Assembly (NCBI RefSeq): GCF_900116555.1
Contig: NZ_FPAT01000002.1
Span: 372,001-436,000 of the forward strand
Reading direction: 5' to 3'
DNA from: Actinopolyspora lacussalsi subsp. righensis
Lineage (GTDB): Bacteria > Actinomycetota > Actinomycetes > Mycobacteriales > Pseudonocardiaceae
Length of the DNA stretch: 64,000 nt
A program made the position numbers and the translations under genes. A model generated the notes under the pieces. That model worked only from the letters and a program-made list of their open reading frames with translations. It was not told the origin of the DNA and did no database searches. Within the stretch, counting starts at the first letter, position 1, and each line of letters begins with the position of its first letter. Positions 28,452-40,306 of the stretch are shown piece after piece.

Positions 28452-29597
28452 ATGCGAATCACGGGGCTGGAGACTTTCCCAGTGCCGCCTCGTTGGCTGT
28501 TTCTCAGGATCTCCACCGACGAGGGGATCGTCGGCTGGGGCGAACCGGTGGTGGAGGGGCGTGCTCACACCGTCGCGGCGGCCGTCGACGAGCTGTCCGA
28601 GCTGTTGGTGGGGCGCGATCCGCTGGCCATCGAGGATCACTGGCAGGTGATGACCAAGGGTGGTTTCTACCGTGGTGGTCCGGTGCTCTCCAGCGCCGTG
28701 GCGGGCATAGACCAGGCGCTCTGGGACATCGCGGGCAAGAGCTACGGCGTACCCGTACACCGGCTGTTCGGTGGGCCGGTGCGCGAGCGGGTCCGGGTGT
28801 ACCAGTGGATCGGTGGTGACGAGCCCTCGGACGTGGCCGAAGCGGCCGCCGAGCAGGTAGAGGCCGGTTTCACCGCCGTGAAGATGAACGGCAGCGGCAG
28901 ACTGCGCCACATCGACACGCCCGCCGAGCTGGACGCGGTGGTCAGCCGGGTCGCCGCGGTGCGCGAGGTGCTCGGCGACGAGCGTGACGTGGCGGTGGAC
29001 TTCCACGGCCGGTTCTCCACCGCGATGAGCCGTCGGGTGCTGCCCCGCTTGGAGCCGCTGTCCCCGCTGTTCGTCGAGGAACCGGTGCTACCGGAGAACA
29101 CCGCCAAGGTCCGCGACCTCGTCACCTCGACTTCCATTCCCATCGCGCTGGGGGAGCGGTTGTTCTCCCGCTGGGACTTCCGCGATGTGCTGACCTCCGG
29201 AATCGCCGTGGCGCAGCCCGATCTCTCACATGCGGGCGGGATCTCGGAGGTGCGCCGCATCGCGGCGATGGCCGAGGCGCACGACGTGACGCTGGCGCCG
29301 CACTGTCCACTCGGGCCGCTGGCGCTGGCGGCCAGCCTGCAGATCGCCTTCGCGACCCCGAACTTCCTGATCCAGGAGCAGAGCAGGGGAATCCACTACA
29401 ACGTGGGCTCGGACCTGCTGGACTACCTGGTCGATCCCAGCCCGTTCCGGTTCGACGAGGGGCACGTCGCCGCGCCCCAGGGGCCCGGTCTGGGCGTCGA
29501 GATCGACGAGGCGAAGGTGCGCGAGGCCGCCGAGCGCGGTCACCGCTGGCGTTCACCGGTCTGGCGTGATTCGGACGGCGCCTTCGTCGAGTGGTGA
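28452..29597 (+). CDS. dgoD: D-galactonate dehydratase
   Basis: 381 aa enolase-superfamily enzyme, close to E. coli DgoD throughout: MRITGLETFPVPPRWLFLRI, WGEPVVEGRAHTV, GFYRGGPVLSSAVAGIDQAL, DFHGR, FVEEPVLPEN, GERLFSRWDF, QPDLSHAGGISE and APHCPLGPLALAASL. Metal ligands D (VDFHGR), E (VEEP) and E (LGER), plus the catalytic His in APHCPLGP, are present. It dehydrates galactonate to KDGal. ATG at 28452 has GGAG 5 nt upstream. The last 107 bp of the gene (36 codons) plus 6 bp recur at 33264. Confidence 0.93.
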   Translation: MRITGLETFPVPPRWLFLRISTDEGIVGWGEPVVEGRAHTVAAAVDELSELLVGRDPLAIEDHWQVMTKGGFYRGGPVLSSAVAGIDQALWDIAGKSYGVPVHRLFGGPVRERVRVYQWIGGDEPSDVAEAAAEQVEAGFTAVKMNGSGRLRHIDTPAELDAVVSRVAAVREVLGDERDVAVDFHGRFSTAMSRRVLPRLEPLSPLFVEEPVLPENTAKVRDLVTSTSIPIALGERLFSRWDFRDVLTSGIAVAQPDLSHAGGISEVRRIAAMAEAHDVTLAPHCPLGPLALAASLQIAFATPNFLIQEQSRGIHYNVGSDLLDYLVDPSPFRFDEGHVAAPQGPGLGVEIDEAKVREAAERGHRWRSPVWRDSDGAFVEW

Positions 29598-29603
29598 GCC
29601 GGG
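29491..29603 (+). repeat. dgoD 3'-end direct repeat, left copy
   Basis: These 113 bp (end of dgoD plus 6 bp) match 33264-33376 in direct orientation with only three substitutions. The left copy is the functional gene end. Confidence 0.93.
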
Positions 29604-33230: not shown

Positions 33231-33259
33231 CGAACTCACCCCACCCGGAACGTCCGCGA
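33231..33259 (+). repeat. Copy of the ceramidase 3' end
   Basis: 29 bp identical to 38262-38290, which is the end of the ceramidase gene (its last seven codons, the stop and 5 bp beyond). Only 4 bp separate it from the duplicated dgoD tail. Confidence 0.85.
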
Positions 33260-33263
33260 GGTT

Positions 33264-33376
33264 TGGGCGTCGAGATCGACGAGACGAAGGTGCGCGAGGC
33301 CGCCGAGCGCGGTCACCGCTGGCGTTCACTGGTCTGGCGTGATTCGGACGGCGCCTTCGCCGAGTGGTGAGCCGGG
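33264..33376 (+). pseudogene. Truncated dgoD 3'-end duplicate
   Basis: 110 of 113 bp match 29491-29603. It encodes the last 36 residues of DgoD (LGVEIDETKVREA and onward) with its stop, and lacks the rest of the gene. It is preceded by a ceramidase tail copy rather than by dgoD sequence, so it is a recombination scar, not a decayed full gene. Confidence 0.92.
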
Positions 33377-33404
33377 CCGGCTCGACAGCGGATGGTCGGT
33401 ACCG

Positions 33405-33429
33405 GAGTCCCGGTCTCGGACCGGGACTC
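33405..33429 (-). terminator. Terminator hairpin after rsr
   Basis: GAGTCCCGGTC (33405-33415) and GACCGGGACTC (33419-33429) form an 11-bp perfect stem with a 3-nt loop, 10 bp beyond the rsr stop. No T-tract. Confidence 0.6.
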
Positions 33430-33438
33430 GCCCGCGGT

Positions 33439-35043
33439 TCACGCCTCCCAGGGCCATTGTTGTTCACCACCCGCTTCCACCAGCGGGATCAGGCCGAAGC
33501 AGGTGTCGTTGAGCCCGCCGTAGGTGTGGCGGTTGGTGACACCGGCCGGGGTGTGACCCGCCTCGTAACCTGCCAGGTTGAACGTGTGCACCGGTGTGCT
33601 CTCGGGCAGCACCTCGGTCACGGGCTCAGCGTCCGGGCCGGTCTGCTCGTCGGTCAACAGCACCACGCGGTCGTGCCCGTCGTAGTGCTCGCGCAGCGCC
33701 TGCTGCGTGGCGGTGCCGCCGTCCAGCATGAATCCATCGTCGAACCACCTGCGCAGCGAGTCGAGCACGGCCTCATCGGGTCGCGGCGGAAACCGTGCGG
33801 AGTGCGACCGTTCGCGCCACCGGCCGCTCAGTCCCGAGTAGGAGACCACTTCCGTCCGCTCGCAGCGTGCCGCCAAGGCTAGTCCGAACAGGGCGGCGGC
33901 GTCCGAACGGCGCACACTGCCCCGTCGGCTGAACGGCCGGTCCATCGAGGCTGAGGTGTCGACCAGTACCAGCGTGCTGCCCCGCAGGACCGGAATGTTC
34001 GGCAGCGTGTGCTGCACGGCGCGTTCCAGGCACTCCCGCCAGCGATCGCCACGCACGGCTCGACCCGCCGCGAACACCGCCAACGGCAGCTGGCGCGAGC
34101 GCGCCACCTCGGTGGGATCGCCCAGTTTCGCCGCTATCCCCGCCGCTGTCTCGTCGGAGATCCCGGCCTTGTCGAAGTTGCGCAGGTTGCGCAGCAGGGC
34201 GGTGTAGCCCATCGCGGGAATCACGCTCTCCCATGCCTGGGCATCGAGCCGTTCACCCAGCCAACCGGCCAGCGATTCCCAGGTGAACCCCGCACGCCGA
34301 AGTCGTTCGGCGCCCGCCGGATCGGTGATCCAGCTCCGCCGTGACCGCGGCGCCACCTCGCGAAGTTCGGCGTGCTCGCGCAGTACCGACAGTTCGGCGG
34401 GGATGTCCGCGTCGTCGCGTCGGCGGTCCAGGCAGTACCGCAGTAACGTGCTCTGGTGCCGGTTCGCCGGTTTCGGGTGCGTGAGCTCGACGACGTCACC
34501 GAACCGGAAGTTCCGCTTGGGCGAGTCCCACTTGAGCAGGGCGTGTTCGTGCCACAGCCGCCGGATCGCGTCGTTGATTCCCTTCTTGATCGGCATGGGC
34601 GGCGGTTTGCCGTGTTCGGCGACCCAGTGGGCTAGCAGCTCCCCCGGTTCGTCCGCCCGCCGCAGCACACTGTCGACGACCCGCCGCGAGAGTCCGTCCA
34701 GCCCGGCGGCGCGTCGTGCGGCCACGAACTCGGCAGCTCCGAGCAGGGCGACCGAACGCAGACCCGCCCCGTTACGCAGCCACCCCAGCAGCCGGGCCGT
34801 CCATTCGCCGTCGGTCACGGCACGCTCGCGAATCAGCCGAACGAAACGGGAGTCCCGTTGTCCGGCCGATTCGTAGAAGCTCGGCTCGCCGACCAGGTTG
34901 GTCACGGCGAGCAGGAACAGTTCCGCGCGGGGATCGCGGACGTAGCCCGGGCCGCCCTCGTGCGTGACGGCTGTCGGCTCGGTTCGGTCCCGCTTGCCGG
35001 GATGTCCGTGAGTTCGGGCCGCCGCACGGTTGAACTTCGCCAC
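33439..35043 (-). CDS. rsr: Ro60/TROVE RNA-binding protein (Rsr)
   Basis: 534 aa. Residues about 30-340 form the TROVE HEAT-repeat ring (FLLAVTNLVGEPSFYE, HWVAEHGKPPPMPIKKGINDA, FRFGDVVELTHPKP, YTALLRNLRNF). A von Willebrand A domain follows with the MIDAS motif DTSASMD at about 362-368. Ro proteins bind Y RNAs and misfolded RNAs and join exonucleases in RNA quality control. GTG at 35043 has AGGGAGGGAG directly upstream, so it is preferred over ATG at 35061. A Y-RNA-like gene lies 62 bp upstream on the same strand. No rtcB/rtcA genes are nearby. Confidence 0.92.
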   Translation of the reverse strand: MAKFNRAAARTHGHPGKRDRTEPTAVTHEGGPGYVRDPRAELFLLAVTNLVGEPSFYESAGQRDSRFVRLIRERAVTDGEWTARLLGWLRNGAGLRSVALLGAAEFVAARRAAGLDGLSRRVVDSVLRRADEPGELLAHWVAEHGKPPPMPIKKGINDAIRRLWHEHALLKWDSPKRNFRFGDVVELTHPKPANRHQSTLLRYCLDRRRDDADIPAELSVLREHAELREVAPRSRRSWITDPAGAERLRRAGFTWESLAGWLGERLDAQAWESVIPAMGYTALLRNLRNFDKAGISDETAAGIAAKLGDPTEVARSRQLPLAVFAAGRAVRGDRWRECLERAVQHTLPNIPVLRGSTLVLVDTSASMDRPFSRRGSVRRSDAAALFGLALAARCERTEVVSYSGLSGRWRERSHSARFPPRPDEAVLDSLRRWFDDGFMLDGGTATQQALREHYDGHDRVVLLTDEQTGPDAEPVTEVLPESTPVHTFNLAGYEAGHTPAGVTNRHTYGGLNDTCFGLIPLVEAGGEQQWPWEA

Positions 35044-35104
35044 GGCCGCTCCCTCCCTCATGAATCGTCGATCGAGAACCGAGTGGACGGCCCTGGAACG
35101 GGTT

Positions 35105-35204
35105 GGCGACGGCGGTTACAGTGCTCTGCCGATTGAGCTACCGGTCGTACCGGACGGGACTCGAACCCGCAACAGCTGTGTTTGAGGACGAAGTAGCCGT
35201 CACC
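35105..35204 (-). ncRNA. Bacterial Y RNA with permuted tRNA-like module
   Basis: On the minus strand, GGUGACGGC (5' end, 35204) pairs with GCCGUCGCC (3' end, 35105) as a 9-bp terminal stem beside a 3-nt bulge (ACC), the expected Ro-binding end. Inside, in this order, come a T arm (GCGGG-UUCGAGU-CCCGU, a perfect B box), a short closed acceptor-like hairpin (CCGGU-ACG-ACCGG) and a D arm (GCUC-AAUCGGCA-GAGC preceded by UA). T arm before D arm is a circular permutation of a tRNA, as described for YrlA-type Y RNAs. Its place directly upstream of rsr supports this. Exact ends are estimates. Confidence 0.82.
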
Positions 35205-35493
35205 GGCACATCGGGCCATCCACTCGGGACGATCGACTCCCGGTGGTGCGGGGGTTTCGGGCAACCGTCGAACCGTGGTTCGAGCGAGCCGGAGAGCTCC
35301 CACCGGGAGCCGATCACGACGGGCATTCTGCTGGTGGCGCGTCGCGCCTCGCAACGGAATTTCCGCCGACCGGGCACCCGGGTGAGCGGCTCTTTCGTCG
35401 CCGGACTCACCACTCGTCCCCTGTGCCGAGATGGCGGCACGGCTGACTCCGGTTCATGCGGGGGAGGTTGTGCGATGACATGTCGGTGCGACC

Positions 35494-36006
35494 TCAGTGG
35501 TCCGCTTCGTCCGGGGGGATATCGCCGAGGCTGGTGAGGAGTTTGCGTAGCAGTTCGGTGAGGTGTTCCTGCTCGTGCGGATCGAGTCCGGCGAGTGCTC
35601 GTGTCTCGTGCTCGACGTGGTCGACCATGGCCGCGTCCACGACTCGGTAACCGTGTTCGGTGAGTGTGATCAGTACGCTGCGCCGGTTGTCGGGGTCGGT
35701 TTCGCGGGTCACCAGTTCCTTGGCCGCCAGCCGGTCGATGCGGTTGGTGATGGCTCCGGAGGTGACCATGGCGGCTTCGACAAGGGCGCTCGCCGTCAGC
35801 TGGTACGGGGCTCCGGAGCGACGGAGTGTGGCCAGGATGTCGAATTCCCAGGACTGCAGGTCGTGGGCGGCGTAGTTCTCGCGCAGTGTGCGTTCGAGCC
35901 GTTGTGAAGCGCGCTTGATGCGTCCCACCACGCCCATCGGCGCGGGGTCGATGTCCGGTCGTTCGGTGCTCCACTGCTCCAGCAGTCGGTCCACACTGTC
36001 CCTCAC
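35494..36006 (-). CDS. MarR-family regulator
   Basis: 170 aa. The winged helix has LQSWEFDILATLRRSG, LTASALVEAAMVTSGAITNR and IDRLAAKELVTRETDPDNRR (DxRs wing), followed by the C-terminal dimer helix with HEQEHLTELLRKLL. GTG at 36006 has AAGGAG 4 nt upstream. It is divergent from the EamA transporter gene with an 85-bp AT-rich gap, so it most likely represses both. The 288 bp between it and the Y RNA holds nothing I can support. Confidence 0.9.
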   Translation of the reverse strand: MRDSVDRLLEQWSTERPDIDPAPMGVVGRIKRASQRLERTLRENYAAHDLQSWEFDILATLRRSGAPYQLTASALVEAAMVTSGAITNRIDRLAAKELVTRETDPDNRRSVLITLTEHGYRVVDAAMVDHVEHETRALAGLDPHEQEHLTELLRKLLTSLGDIPPDEADH

Positions 36007-36029
36007 TGATCTCCTTAACGTTGAAGTGT

Positions 36030-36083
36030 TTGACTCATACTAGCAGGCGAGTTAATCTAATGAATGTTGATTATTTTAACATT
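36030..36083 (+). promoter_or_regulatory. Promoter and MarR operator candidate before eamA
   Basis: TTGACT (36030-36035), 17 nt, TAATCT (36053-36058) is a promoter-like pair. Just downstream AATGTT (36063-36068) and AACATT (36078-36083) form an inverted repeat spaced by 9 nt, a fitting MarR site in an AT-rich gap. Confidence 0.55.
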
Positions 36084-36091
36084 AAGGGGAA

Positions 36092-37129
36092 ATGGTGACC
36101 CGGATCGCTGAAGCCGGAAGTTCCGCCGCGGACGGCTCCCCGGCGCGGACATGGAGTCTGACCGGTCTCGCCGCGTTGGCGCCGGCGACGTGGGGAACCA
36201 CTTACCTGGTGACCACCGAGTTCCTGCCGCCGGACCGCCCGATACTTTCCGGTGCGATCCGTGCACTGCCCGCGGGGCTGATCGTGCTCGCGCTGACCCG
36301 GACACTGCCGCGGGGAAGCTGGTGGTGGCGTGCGGCTTTGTTGGGCACCCTCAACATCGGAGCCTTCTTCGCGTTGCTGTTCGTCGCGGCCTACCGGCTG
36401 CCCGGGGGTGTCGCGGCCACTCTCAGCGCGGTGCAGCCGTTGTTGGTCGCGGGGTTGGCGTTCGGGCTGCTCGGAGAACGGCCGACGCGCTGGCGTCTCG
36501 GCTGGGGTGTGGCCGGAGTGGTCGGCGTGGCCATGATGGTGCTCCAAGGGAAGCTGAGCTTCGACCCGATCGGGATCCTGGCAGGACTCGCCGGCGCCGG
36601 GGCGATGTCGGCCGGTGTCGTGCTTACCAAGCGGTGGGGCCGCCCCGAGGGGGTGAGTCTGTTGACCTTCACCGGCTGGCAGCTGACCGCGGGTGGTCTC
36701 CTGCTCGCGCCGCTGGCTCTGGCTTTCGAGGGAATGCCCCCGCCGTTGGATCTGTCCGCGATGGCCGGATACCTCTGGCTGGGCGGTGTCGGCACGCTGC
36801 TGGCCTACATGCTGTGGTTCCAGGGGGTGGCTCGGTTGCCCGTCGCGGCCGTGTCGTTCCTCGGTCTGCTTTCCCCGGCCGTGGCCACGATCCTGGGATG
36901 GTTGGTCCTGAACGAAACCCTGACCGGCGTCCAGACGATCGGTTTCGTGCTCGCCCTGCTCTCGATCGCGGCCGCACAGCTCAGCCCTCCCGACTTCGGC
37001 AGGTCGCACCGATCGAACTCGCCGTCCCCATCGGGGAACCGGCACCGAAAGCCGCTGCGGCGGAGGAGTCCGACGAGTCCCGACGCGCACCGGCAGCCAC
37101 AGACCACCGGTAGTGACAGCCACCGGTAA
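36092..37129 (+). CDS. EamA/DMT-family exporter
   Basis: 345 aa with ten predicted helices and two EamA repeats. GLAALAPATWGTTYLVTTEF and AAYRLPGGVAATLSAVQPLLV belong to repeat 1. GVVLTKRWG starts repeat 2, and ARLPVAAVSFLGLLSPAVAT ends it. The cytosolic tail after 290 is basic and Ser/Pro-rich. Members export amino acids or small metabolites. ATG at 36092 follows AAGGGGA by 2-8 nt. Divergent from marR and 35 bp before the NmrA-like gene, probably one operon. Confidence 0.88.
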   Translation: MVTRIAEAGSSAADGSPARTWSLTGLAALAPATWGTTYLVTTEFLPPDRPILSGAIRALPAGLIVLALTRTLPRGSWWWRAALLGTLNIGAFFALLFVAAYRLPGGVAATLSAVQPLLVAGLAFGLLGERPTRWRLGWGVAGVVGVAMMVLQGKLSFDPIGILAGLAGAGAMSAGVVLTKRWGRPEGVSLLTFTGWQLTAGGLLLAPLALAFEGMPPPLDLSAMAGYLWLGGVGTLLAYMLWFQGVARLPVAAVSFLGLLSPAVATILGWLVLNETLTGVQTIGFVLALLSIAAAQLSPPDFGRSHRSNSPSPSGNRHRKPLRRRSPTSPDAHRQPQTTGSDSHR

Positions 37130-37164
37130 CGACACGAAACCACTCTCGGGAAAGGAAGAAAACG

Positions 37165-38046
37165 TTGAGTCGAACCCTGTTGATCACCGGAGCCACCGGC
37201 ACCGTGTCCAGTGCTCTGCTGGAGGCCCTGCGGCATTCCGAACTCGAACCACGGGCGCTGGTCCGCGATGAGGCGAAGGCCGAGCAATTCGAGGCACGGG
37301 GTATACGGGCCGTCGTCGGCGACCTCGACGACGCCCGGTCGCTCCCGGCGGCCTTCGAGGGCGTGCAGGATCTGTGGTTGCTGACCCCGAACAGTCCCCG
37401 GGCGCCCGAGAACAACATGAACGCCGTCTGGGCCGCGCGTCGGGCGGGCGTGGAACGGGTGGTTCGCCTGTCGGCGGTCGGTGCGGCCCATGACGCGCCG
37501 ACCCGCAGCGGACGGTTGCACGCACTGTCCGATCGCGAGACCGAACGATCCGGCATGTACTGGACGATCCTGCGACCCCACTGGTTCATGCAGAACCTGC
37601 TCAACGAGGCAGGCGACATCGCGGCCGAGGGAGCGTTCTCCCTCAACATGGGCCAGGAGCGGTTGGGGATGATCGACGTGCGCGACATCGCCGAGTTCGC
37701 CGCGCGGGTACTCACCACGGAACCGGACCGCCATCACGGCAAGACCTACACCCCGACCGGACCGCGCTCGCTGTCCTTCACGGAGGTGGCCGAACAGCTC
37801 GGTCGAACGCTCGGACGAGAGATCCGCTACGTGCCGACGACCGACGAAGTTGAGCGCAAGACCCTGCTCGACATCGGCGTGCCGGAATGGATGACCGAGA
37901 TGCTCATCGAGTACGGACAAGCCTACGCGACCGGGTGGGGTGACTTCACGACGAACGATTTCCAGAACGTCGTGGGCCACCAGCCCCGTGGTTTCGCCGA
38001 CTTCGCACAAGACCACGTCGACAGCTTCGCCCCGGCACACCGATAA
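37165..38046 (+). CDS. NmrA-like NAD(P)-binding SDR protein
   Basis: 293 aa atypical SDR. The N-terminal nucleotide loop is TGATGTVSSALLEAL (GxxGxxG variant), followed by GDLDDARSL, LSAVGAA and RPHWFMQNL. There is no YxxxK dyad, as in NmrA/HSCARG-like redox sensors and quinone or NADP binders. The TTG at 37165 has GGAAAGGAAG a few bases upstream. Its place behind a MarR-controlled exporter suggests a stress or detoxification response. Confidence 0.83.
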   Translation: MSRTLLITGATGTVSSALLEALRHSELEPRALVRDEAKAEQFEARGIRAVVGDLDDARSLPAAFEGVQDLWLLTPNSPRAPENNMNAVWAARRAGVERVVRLSAVGAAHDAPTRSGRLHALSDRETERSGMYWTILRPHWFMQNLLNEAGDIAAEGAFSLNMGQERLGMIDVRDIAEFAARVLTTEPDRHHGKTYTPTGPRSLSFTEVAEQLGRTLGREIRYVPTTDEVERKTLLDIGVPEWMTEMLIEYGQAYATGWGDFTTNDFQNVVGHQPRGFADFAQDHVDSFAPAHR

Positions 38047-38261
38047 CCCCACCGAACACGAACCTCGCCACTCACCCGGCGGACCAAGCCCTGTGACCAC
38101 GAGAACGAACCCGTCGTGACCGGGTCGGAAACAGCGTTGATCGCCCGAAGTCTTGGGAGGCCGCGCTCGGCCCGCCACCCCCGATCGCACCCCGTTCGGT
38201 TACTCGGAGCACCGCGACGAGGAAGGTCGAACGGCAAGCTGGGTTGGGGAATTTCCTTAGT

Positions 38262-38290
38262 CGAACTCACCCCACCCGGAACGTCCGCGA
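38262..38290 (+). repeat. Ceramidase 3'-end direct repeat, right copy
   Basis: 29 bp spanning the ceramidase stop, identical to 33231-33259 in the same orientation. Together they bracket the rsr-NmrA segment. Confidence 0.85.
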
Positions 38291-40306
38291 TGTTCCGGAG
38301 AAGGGGGTGATCTCCCCGCCCACCGCCTTGGCGGCGCCGTGGTGCACGATGCGGTACTCGCCCTCGGCGGCGTCCGGTGGGATCGTCCAGCTGACGGTCG
38401 CGGTGGAGGCAGCCACCCCGCGACGTGCCCAGTGGAACCGGGTCGACCAGTCACCGTCGTCGGCCACCGTCACCCAGCCGTCGGCCGAGCGGCGCTGCAC
38501 CAGCAGGTAGCTGCCGTCGCGGTGCAGGTCGTTGTTGGGGTGTGCCGAGGCGAACACCACCCGCACCGTCCCCCCGCGTCGGTGGCGTTCCCCGGGCTGT
38601 TCCAACACCTCGCCGAACTCCCGGCCCACCGGTGGCGAGTCGAACACCACGCCCGGCTGCAGTCGCACCCCGCCGCCTTCGGGATTGCCCGCCGGGGACG
38701 GTCCCCGGGCGCTGTCCCGACCGGCGGCCATGTCGGCCGCGATCCTGGCGAACTCCTGCTGGTAGGCGGGCAGCGACCACCTCCCGAACATGGTGTGGCC
38801 GCCTTCGTAGGCCTGCTGGTCGTACTCCTCCGGAGTGGTCAGGTAACCGGCGTAGTCGTTGGCGTAGCCCGCCACCACGACATCGGTGGGATCCACCCCG
38901 AGCTCGGCGGCCACCGTGCGGCGCAGCCGCAGCCCGCCGACGATGCTGACCTCCTGCGGAATCCCGACCAGGTGCAGCGTGCCGATCCGCACCAGCTGGA
39001 TCGGCAGTATTCGCGGTACCCAGCCCATCGACCCCACCGGCAACAGGATCTCTTTGGGTGCCTGCCGGTTCCGCAGTCGCGGTGACGTCCGATACAGCGC
39101 ACGGCTGATCGTGCCGAAGAACGGGTTGTTGCCCGCTCCCTCCTCGAAGAAGGACGGCCCCGGACCGTCCTCCGCACCCGCCGCGAACGACGCCCCCAGC
39201 GCCGCCGCGCAGGTCCGGTGCGAACTTCCGTCGCCGGTGAACTCCGGGGCGACACGGGTGTCCGACATGTCGACGTAGGACATTCGATGGTCGATGCCGC
39301 CGTCCACGGCGGTGGTCGCCTCCCGCAGCAGCCGGGCCGCCGCGGTGTACTGCCGATCGCCGATGATCCGGGTGTTGGCGAACTCGTCGTCCGTGGGGCC
39401 GGTTCCGGGGCGCAGCTCCAGGTTCGGCGACATGTCGGCGGCGTTGGACTGCGCGAACGCGGCGACGAACCCGGGGTCGCCCGCGCGGTAGTCCACTCCC
39501 GCGATCTCGCGCTCCCACCGGTAGGCGGCGTAGCCCTTGTTGTCGCCGCTGATGAGCGTGTTGGCCGGGCTGAGGCTGGTGGTGTGGGTGGCGAACCAGT
39601 TGATCGCGCCCACGGCCCTCCCGCCGCGTTCGAAGCGCAGCAGCACCGTGGCCGGGTCCGTCGCGTCGGGGAAGTGGTTCCGGTCCGTCGCCGGGTTGCG
39701 GTCGAACGCCGCGCGGGAGCGGTTGACGCTGGCGTTGGTCAGCTCGCCGCGTGCGATGTGGAGGTTTCCGGGAGCCAGGTCGGCGTCGGCGCGTTCGATC
39801 GATTCGGTGATGCCCGCCACCAGCGCTTCGAAGGTGCCGGGCTGGAAACCCAGCGTGGTGACGTTGTAGAGGGTGTGGCAGGAGAAGCCACCCGGTCCGG
39901 CGTGGGTGTGGGTGGCCGTCAGCAGCACGTTGTGTTCGCCGTAGCGCGTGCCGTGTGCGCGTGCCAGGCGTTCGAGCACGGCGCGGCGCACGGCCCCGAA
40001 GATCATCCCCGCGTCCACCGTCACCACGGCCACCCGCCGTTCGGGGGCGGTTCGTTCGGCGATGACGAAGGCGCGGGCGCGTTGCCGCTGGTGGATGCCG
40101 GTGGTGCGCTGTTCCGGCCGGGCGTAGCCCATCATGCCGTTCTCGGCGGGCTGGCCCGTCACGTCGCCGATGCCGCGACCGAGCAGGTAGTGCCCACCTC
40201 CGGGCTCGCTCGCCGCGGCGGTGCGTCCCGCGGCGGCGGCCGTCAGCAGTGCGGTCAGGCCGCCCCGCAGCACCGGGCGTCTGCCGAACGTGTTTCCGCC
40301 GTACAT
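38267..40306 (-). CDS. Secreted neutral/alkaline ceramidase
   Basis: 679 aa. A twin-arginine-type leader (GRRPVLRGGLTALLTAAAAG) precedes the mature enzyme. The catalytic domain has GIGDVTGQPAENGMMGYARPEQ, the zinc-site TATHTHAGPGG, INWFATHTTS and the nucleophile serine region SNAADMSPNL. After about residue 510 comes the C-terminal immunoglobulin-like domain. It cleaves ceramide amide bonds outside the cell; homologues occur in Pseudomonas and Mycobacterium. It converges with the NmrA gene; its last 24 bp including the stop recur at 33236. Confidence 0.92.
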   Translation of the reverse strand: MYGGNTFGRRPVLRGGLTALLTAAAAGRTAAASEPGGGHYLLGRGIGDVTGQPAENGMMGYARPEQRTTGIHQRQRARAFVIAERTAPERRVAVVTVDAGMIFGAVRRAVLERLARAHGTRYGEHNVLLTATHTHAGPGGFSCHTLYNVTTLGFQPGTFEALVAGITESIERADADLAPGNLHIARGELTNASVNRSRAAFDRNPATDRNHFPDATDPATVLLRFERGGRAVGAINWFATHTTSLSPANTLISGDNKGYAAYRWEREIAGVDYRAGDPGFVAAFAQSNAADMSPNLELRPGTGPTDDEFANTRIIGDRQYTAAARLLREATTAVDGGIDHRMSYVDMSDTRVAPEFTGDGSSHRTCAAALGASFAAGAEDGPGPSFFEEGAGNNPFFGTISRALYRTSPRLRNRQAPKEILLPVGSMGWVPRILPIQLVRIGTLHLVGIPQEVSIVGGLRLRRTVAAELGVDPTDVVVAGYANDYAGYLTTPEEYDQQAYEGGHTMFGRWSLPAYQQEFARIAADMAAGRDSARGPSPAGNPEGGGVRLQPGVVFDSPPVGREFGEVLEQPGERHRRGGTVRVVFASAHPNNDLHRDGSYLLVQRRSADGWVTVADDGDWSTRFHWARRGVAASTATVSWTIPPDAAEGEYRIVHHGAAKAVGGEITPFSGTSRTFRVG

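Follow-up and report, generated by a model that had tools for sequence, protein, structure and literature searches.

The window analysed here is a stretch of 64,000 nucleotides from Actinopolyspora lacussalsi subsp. righensis, and all positions are those of this stretch. Positions 35087-35219 of its minus strand were assigned to a YrlA-type bacterial Y RNA which lies directly upstream of an rsr gene encoding a TROVE (Ro60-like) protein. We consider it very probable that this is a real, unannotated YrlA-type Y RNA of a known kind. The order of T arm, closed acceptor-like hairpin and D arm is readable on the minus strand, and the same order is given by the alignments with Rfam and with our own family models, as an earlier note made from the letters of this DNA had described for the inside of a 9-bp stem. 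The extent given in that note, 35105-35204, lies inside the core; the element is longer, and two more basal helices carry it to 35237 and 35067. The features are collected in Table 1. In addition to these, ACC sits between GUA and the 3′ strand of the 9-bp stem GGUGACGGC/GCCGUCGCC.

Table 1. Location of the Y RNA element, the rsr gene and the flanking repeats in the window
Feature	Positions	Strand	Basis or remark
rsr/Ro60-like gene (TROVE)	33439-35043	minus	likely GTG start 35043; longer ORF starts 35061
Whole hairpin including basal stem	35067-35237	minus	MFE fold of 35060-35240; mature RNA ends not implied
Y RNA core, full-length match to actinomycete Y RNA models	35087-35219	minus	R2 99.8 bits; R1 95 bits
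Upper presumed Ro-binding stem GGUGACGGC/GCCGUCGCC, 9 bp, with enclosed module	35204-35196 with 35113-35105	minus	folds; helix 2 of covariation alignment
UACUUC, family-conserved unpaired motif	35190-35195	minus	motif count in family members
Anticodon-stem equivalent ACAG/CUGU, opening into Ro stem (class B)	35179-35176 with 35121-35118	minus	read from sequence
T arm GCGGG-UUCGAGU-CCCGU	35154-35170	minus	model alignments; helix 5 of covariation alignment
Closed acceptor-like hairpin CCGGU-ACG-ACCGG	35141-35153	minus	folds, Rfam alignment; helix 6 of covariation alignment
D arm GCUC-AAUCGGCA-GAGC	35123-35138	minus	model alignments; helix 7 of covariation alignment
Basal helix CCGAGUGGAUGGCCC/GGGCCGUCCACUCGG	35227-35213 with 35093-35079	minus	MFE fold of 35060-35240
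Outermost basal helix GUCGAUCG/CGAUCGAC	35237-35230 with 35074-35067	minus	MFE fold of 35060-35240
Left 33-nt direct repeat	33231-33263	plus	97% identical to right copy, spacing 5031
Right 33-nt direct repeat	38262-38294	plus	flanks 5-kb insert

Gene neighbourhood and family assignment

The protein encoded downstream was identified as TROVE by PF05731 (49 bits, cut-off 23), a match which is unique to this gene in its own genome. Its ORF is open over 540 residues and the protein has the DxSxS motif; the TROVE protein claimed earlier for this place is supported by domain and motif. It is 48-56% identical to 14 relatives and is sequence kin of 9kop/9l5y (E 6.7e-27 with PDB TROVE chain 9kop_A), and the profile of the TROVE alignment also reaches Ro60 (9nen, 1yvp). 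Relatives such as L004 and L030 begin with MSKFN or MARFN at the equivalent of the GTG at 35043, and the distance of 62 bp between RNA and gene that had been noted agrees with this start.

Two covariance models were built for the family: R1 from 40 TROVE loci with the window in the seed, and R2 from 27 sequences with the window left out. R2 finds the window element with 99.8 bits (E 8.5e-22), the next-best match in the window having 16.1 bits, and the 95 bits of R1 are partly given by construction. The search of its own genome with R1 returned one full-length match and one weak match at neighbouring tRNA genes. The Rfam model for YrlA (RF02553), which the earlier note had named as a check, matched 35178-35117 over model positions 23-87 with E=4.7e-8 in a search of 601 bases, but its 42.4 bits remain below the gathering threshold of 69 bits. 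At this threshold no RF02553 match was obtained in the window element, in 18 relative loci or in 8 further phage and plasmid loci; as the window and all these loci miss it, YrlA is used here as a structural class and not as RF02553 is drawn. The window RNA has the permuted module (by model alignment and covariation), the paired ends and the rsr adjacency of this class. Its acceptor end is closed by ACG, which is not the free end of a linear cloverleaf, and no tRNA was called at the element by ARAGORN. Rfam, R2, covariation and neighbourhood agree that a YrlA-type Y RNA adjoins a gene of the TROVE/Ro60 kind. A tally of R1 matches over the phylum (255 of 396 genomes) was not counted as Y RNAs, as all seven doubtful loci that were checked (L080, L090-L094, L100; matched at positions 30-105 alone or scoring about 50 bits) proved to be neighbouring tRNA genes.

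A TROVE protein was found in 66 of 297 genomes drawn from the family, that of the window included. The distribution of Y RNAs was surveyed in 66 TROVE loci (L002-L067), of which 65 came from this draw (the window is L003) and one from elsewhere; weaker and fragmentary TROVE matches were left out, and L053 and L063 share one genome. An R1 match (E 0.01 or better) is present in 64 of these loci, all except L042 and L062, and in 24 of the 26 loci outside the R1 seed; the match in L002 is weak (27.2 bits) and of a short form. Up to three Y RNAs stand in a row before rsr in relatives. A Y RNA upstream of a Ro-like gene was also found in Gordonia phages VanLee and Rabbitrun, in Streptomyces phages LuckySocke and BRock and in a Rhodococcus plasmid, and a match downstream of the TROVE gene in a Bifidobacterium plasmid and in Arthrobacter phage Atuin.

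Between the end of the hairpin and the likely GTG start on the same strand there are 23 nt, and in 34950-35560 neither an intrinsic terminator nor a promoter resembling the sigma-70 consensus, the only one scanned for, was found. It may be argued from both facts that the element is chiefly a structured 5′ leader of the rsr mRNA, to which Rsr binds in cis to regulate its own translation, with no separate Y RNA. We regard this as unlikely, for relatives have such elements in tandem before rsr, the Bifidobacterium and Atuin matches lie downstream of the gene, the tRNA module is kept in a detail that a mere leader would not need, and the promoter scan was limited to one consensus. The window Y RNA is probably the partner of the adjoining Ro60-type protein.

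The survey of these loci also gave several observations on the variety of the RNAs and their surroundings. Short Y RNAs of about 70-80 nt with no tRNA module lie between longer ones (L036:495-571, L031:3282-3359, L053:487-560 and others). In genus g27 (L055, L057-L060, L030) the Y RNAs are about 101-104 nt long and keep the T arm and the acceptor-like hairpin, with no D arm. In L004, L009 and L063 the common GCUC...GAGC arm is replaced by a D arm GUCUAGCGGCCCAGGAC or similar, which we take to be Glu-type. On Allomeiothermus plasmid pMESIL01 (L152) a gene for an RNB-domain ribonuclease directly follows TROVE, and CRISPR cas1/cas2 and an integrase gene precede it. On a Rhizobium plasmid (L151) TROVE adjoins a divergent gene for a Fis-family regulator, reminiscent of rtcR-regulated operons.

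Covariation and folding of the element

The element is known directly by its sequence, its gene neighbourhood and its family, and its structure by covariation in relatives. In an alignment of 40 sequences, whose rows are related (10 of the 40 from one genus), so that its cells do not count as independent events, pairing is seen in 94.0% of 1469 cells, and 25 of the 37 pairs change on both sides. Double-change cells number 222 against a shuffle mean of 68.5, and pairing falls to 35-46% when the partners are slid by 1-3 columns. Two or more pairs with double changes were found in six of the seven helices. The basal stem (helices 1 and 2) covaries, the upper Ro stem (helix 2) being paired in 90.0% with seven of its nine pairs changing on both sides, and in the acceptor-like hairpin (helix 6) six of seven pairs do so. 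The T arm (helix 5) is paired in 100%, as is the D arm (helix 7), which is nearly invariant. The covariation test proposed for the element is therefore passed with 25 of 37 pairs, to which the D arm contributes a double change in one pair of one sequence. The anticodon hairpin pairs in 78.1% of cells because the class B rows (defined below) are without it. RNAalifold, run unaided on this mixed set of 40, recovers the basal, T, acceptor and D helices; the anticodon hairpin was not recovered.

Folding energies, which exclude tertiary contacts and protein, were also calculated. The 111 nt alone fold no better than shuffles (z -1.05; 31 of 200 as good), and the 181 nt with the basal stem (35060-35240) fold far better (z -5.16; 0 of 200 as good), the gain coming from two more helices that extend the hairpin to 35237 and 35067. 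In the minimum-energy folds of the window RNA the 9-bp stem and the acceptor-like hairpin are present, but the T and D hairpins are absent and the strands of the T arm are paired with those of the D arm instead. The ACAG/CUGU anticodon-stem equivalent, too, is absent from these minima; it forms in the constrained fold, and its inner two pairs were found in the register reading described below. The tRNA-like form of the window core has -46.4 kcal/mol against a minimum of -49.1, that is 2.7 worse, and over the 40 family members the mean gap is 4.6 kcal/mol. Among the single-sequence minima of the 40 aligned members, 31 contain the acceptor hairpin and 29 the upper Ro stem, 24 have the T arm and 19 the D arm, and the inner anticodon helix of two pairs is formed in 3. 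Single-sequence folding was hence rejected as support for the tRNA-like form, as it fails for the window and for many relatives; the support for this form comes from covariation and from a relative whose structure has been published.

The diverged, presumed Ro-binding loop and the possibly mobile setting of the window copy

Motifs were counted in 133 family members, which were left from 138 R1 matches in 75 loci after 5 had been dropped as tRNA arrays or partial. The internal loop, which we infer to be the Ro-binding site, has GGUGCG on its 5′ side in 123 of the 133 members and GAUCUCGG (with variants) on its 3′ side in 105, and UACUUC (first base U, A or C) occurs in 128. Both loop motifs are present in 101 members, and the window copy has neither; otherwise both are missing only in L088 (two copies), L089 (one copy) and L025 (two copies).

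The rsr gene and the Y RNA lie together in a 5-kb segment (33231-38294) bounded by the two 33-nt direct repeats. No TROVE protein was found in any of the 9 other genomes of the genus in the 297-genome draw, one of which belongs to the same species. Four congeners were searched for the flanks of the insert. In G165 (same species) and G038 the flanks are joined with an overlap of about 30 bases, equal to one repeat. The flanks adjoin each other in G117 too, where the left one lacks about 0.5 kb, and in G188 no near flank was found. The right half of the insert (35413-38181) is present elsewhere in G165 and G117 and occurs once in its own genome. Relative to the genus, then, the rsr-Y RNA pair looks like an acquisition. 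A stretch of 117 nt (33260-33376) on the left border of the insert recurs at 29487-29603, about 3.8 kb away, and is 97% alike.

The divergence of both loop motifs, the insert between repeats and the nine congeners without a TROVE protein could also mean that this Y RNA is in decay or put to another use, and that it came with a mobile segment and has lost the conserved Ro-binding loop and with it the usual binding of Rsr. The window protein, moreover, departs at 13 positions that are invariant in the other 14 aligned TROVE proteins, the departures in these 14 being 1-18 each and 6 or fewer in 12 of them. Such decay is nevertheless improbable in our judgement, since the stem is intact and extended by two further basal helices, the pairs of the tRNA module are still possible, the ORF remains open over its whole length with the DxSxS motif in place, and the loop of the RNA may have changed in step with the protein.

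Class A and class B modules, with their proposed function and origin

The module of the 133 members was further analysed for an anticodon arm. Both T and D arms were found by pattern in 71 of them, and the other 62 are short without module, reduced, or have arms outside the patterns. The anticodon positions were then located by counting a constant number of nucleotides from the T arm. In this reading 68 of the 71 form the inner pairs 27-28/42-43, and a full 5-bp anticodon stem with a 7-nt loop and a 5-nt variable region is present in 42. With the reading shifted by 1-5 nt the full stem forms in 0-4 of 71; at the worst shift the two inner pairs alone form in 37 and the three outer pairs in 17. 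When the 3′ strands were dealt among the sequences in 2000 rounds, the full stem had a mean of 12.9 and a maximum of 23, against 42 in the real set. These 42 RNAs are spread over 8 of 13 genera, with 20 in a single genus, and show nine stem combinations. Their loop has U33 in 42, C32 in 40, A37 in 38, A38 in 41, U36 in 36 and A34 in none, and the commonest loop is CUGUUAA (12 of 42). Read from their sequences, 42 of the 71 related RNAs are thus apparently complete circularly permuted tRNAs with an anticodon arm.

We name class A the Y RNAs with this exact anticodon arm, in which the 5-bp anticodon stem is broken between nucleotides 28 and 29 and the loop has U33 and mostly U36-A37-A38. In class B a longer anticodon-stem equivalent opens into the Ro stem. 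The remaining 29 of the 71 do not fit class A, and many of them, including the window copy, are class B; in the class A register the window copy forms pairs 27-28/42-43 alone. Both classes stand side by side in 4 of 7 loci of genus g53 in family f5 (L081, L083, L085, L086). Named examples were drawn from phage and plasmid records that have a TROVE match, 5 of 44 and 6 of 12 being taken, respectively. These gave 41 R1 matches, of which 21 were read and nine have both arms, and the anticodon arm is exact in four of the nine: in Gordonia phage VanLee (loop CUUCUAA), twice in Rhodococcus rhodochrous plasmid NZ_CP027560 (loops CUGUUAA and UUUGGGA) and in Gordonia phage Rabbitrun (loop AUUUUAA; its acceptor region holds a long insert). 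Of the five that are not exact, BRock 2716-2851 and LuckySocke 2360-2506 fit four of the five pairs. An un-permuting test was also tried, in which ARAGORN called a tRNA in 33 of 40 rejoined sequences against 4 of 40 native ones. It says little on the anticodon arm and was set aside because shuffling the anticodon segment alone still gives 3036 of 4000 calls; a triplet anticodon was given in 2334 of 4000 shuffled sequences, against 29 of 40 real ones.

In the parts available of PMC8394870, PMC9569102, PMC11472068 and PMC7790460 an anticodon arm in Y RNAs has no mention, the word anticodon itself having been sought in PMC11472068 alone. No description of it was met in our literature search, whose scope did not take in the key papers Chen 2014, Wang 2018 and Sim and Wolin 2018, and the anticodon-arm variant may be new.

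The known YrlA RNAs have D, T and acceptor-like arms, are modified by DusA (dihydrouridine) and TruB (pseudouridine), and tether Rsr by the basal stem, according to PMC8394870; PMC11472068 describes the superposition of bacterial Y RNA 6CU1 on tRNA by circular permutation. The window RNA resembles YrlA (RF02553; Salmonella YrlA, PDB 6CU1) in the order of its arms, in the gene beside rsr and in a stem formed in the anticodon-stem place with the strand after the D arm, the permutation and the basal stem for Rsr being known for YrlA from the printed accounts. It differs in its sub-threshold Rfam score, in its longer basal stem and in having no loop motifs of its own actinomycete family. Many of its relatives, in addition, have an anticodon hairpin where the Rfam consensus, compared over model 23-87, pairs four bases with the strand after the D arm. 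In Deinococcus radiodurans, too, a Y RNA is the partner of the bacterial Ro60 protein Rsr, and it tethers Rsr to PNPase (RYPER), as given in PMC8394870 and PMC7790460; such tethering was demonstrated there and is presumed for the window RNA. With tRNA the element shares T and D arms, to which its class A relatives add an anticodon arm of exact tRNA dimensions; the closed acceptor end and the permuted order are unlike tRNA.

In the circularly permuted tRNA genes of algae the 3′ half stands before the 5′ half, and they are processed to working tRNAs. Unlike these, the window RNA has an acceptor end closed by a short loop, and its break lies in the anticodon stem, inside the Ro-type stem.

For the window RNA itself we infer expression, Rsr binding, a partner and a function. 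In this explanation the gene of a YrlA-type Y RNA lies on the minus strand just ahead of rsr or within the rsr leader, and the Ro60-like ring protein would presumably sit on the long basal stem, which holds the internal loop. The opposite end, in its working form, would be a permuted tRNA body with the T arm, the closed acceptor hairpin and the D arm set on the anticodon-stem equivalent. This body may be offered to a second partner, candidates for which are a tRNA enzyme, an RNase (PNPase, for example) and a tRNA-cutting nuclease that would be kept occupied by it. By analogy, the RNA would function as a tether for Rsr and possibly as a tRNA decoy. The class A RNAs, as decoys or sensors, would be directed to modifying enzymes and anticodon nucleases. 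It is rather likely, in our estimate, that many Y RNAs next to rsr in actinomycetes, and in phages and plasmids, are complete permuted tRNAs which offer a decoding-like loop while bound to Ro60 and so serve as decoys or sensors for anticodon-loop enzymes, and that the permutation may stem from a tandem tRNA junction. The structural part of this reading is well supported, and its function and origin are conjecture. PMC7790460 reports that no fragments of Salmonella YrlA were observed, from which it follows that the RecA-dependent nuclease does not cut this RNA, and suggests that YrlA may inhibit that nuclease. This idea would be better tested on the class A RNAs, in which the loop is retained.

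As regards origin, the best non-Y matches of R1 among those checked are tandem tRNA-Asn junctions with genes 4-5 nt apart (L090-L092, 56-62 bits), and the loop of this tRNA-Asn is CUGUUAA, the commonest in class A. Ro-like genes with Y RNA matches were also seen within tRNA arrays (L145 LuckySocke, L147 BRock, L149 Atuin, L032). Taken together, these observations suggest that the permuted module arose from a tRNA-gene junction. That the window element is itself a relic of tandem tRNA genes, whose two-gene junction resembles a permuted tRNA and gives just these best non-Y matches, is very improbable, as ARAGORN finds no tRNA in it, the junction matches span model 30-105 alone while the window RNA is matched over the full model including the Ro stem, and the basal stem covaries; as a story of origin the relic is possible. 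Isotype coupling was rejected as a general rule, the nearest tRNA carrying the anticodon of the module in 3 of 40 rows (L017, L021, L039) with a tie in L029. The isotype-likeness test, with 33 tRNA genes from 31 loci of its own genome (which has 50 tRNA matches) as reference, gives no support for a simple tRNA copy, and no claim is based on the RNAs whose D arm is Glu-type, as there are just three of them.

These data carry a warning for annotators. The VanLee 'tRNA-Arg(tct)' (L146:2677-2748) overlaps a Y RNA match of 110 bits and has no Rfam tRNA match, and ARAGORN calls a tRNA-Glu in L027 and a tRNA-Gly in L026 that overlap matches to the Y RNA model scoring 105 and 98 bits, respectively. 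A weaker case of such overlap is the tRNA-Ser(gct) annotated at L145:2714-2787 of LuckySocke (49.5 bits). The window adds to the family a Y RNA-rsr pair that had not been annotated, whose Ro loop has diverged and which lies on a segment missing from the congeners examined; this pair is a natural test of how the RNA and the protein co-vary.
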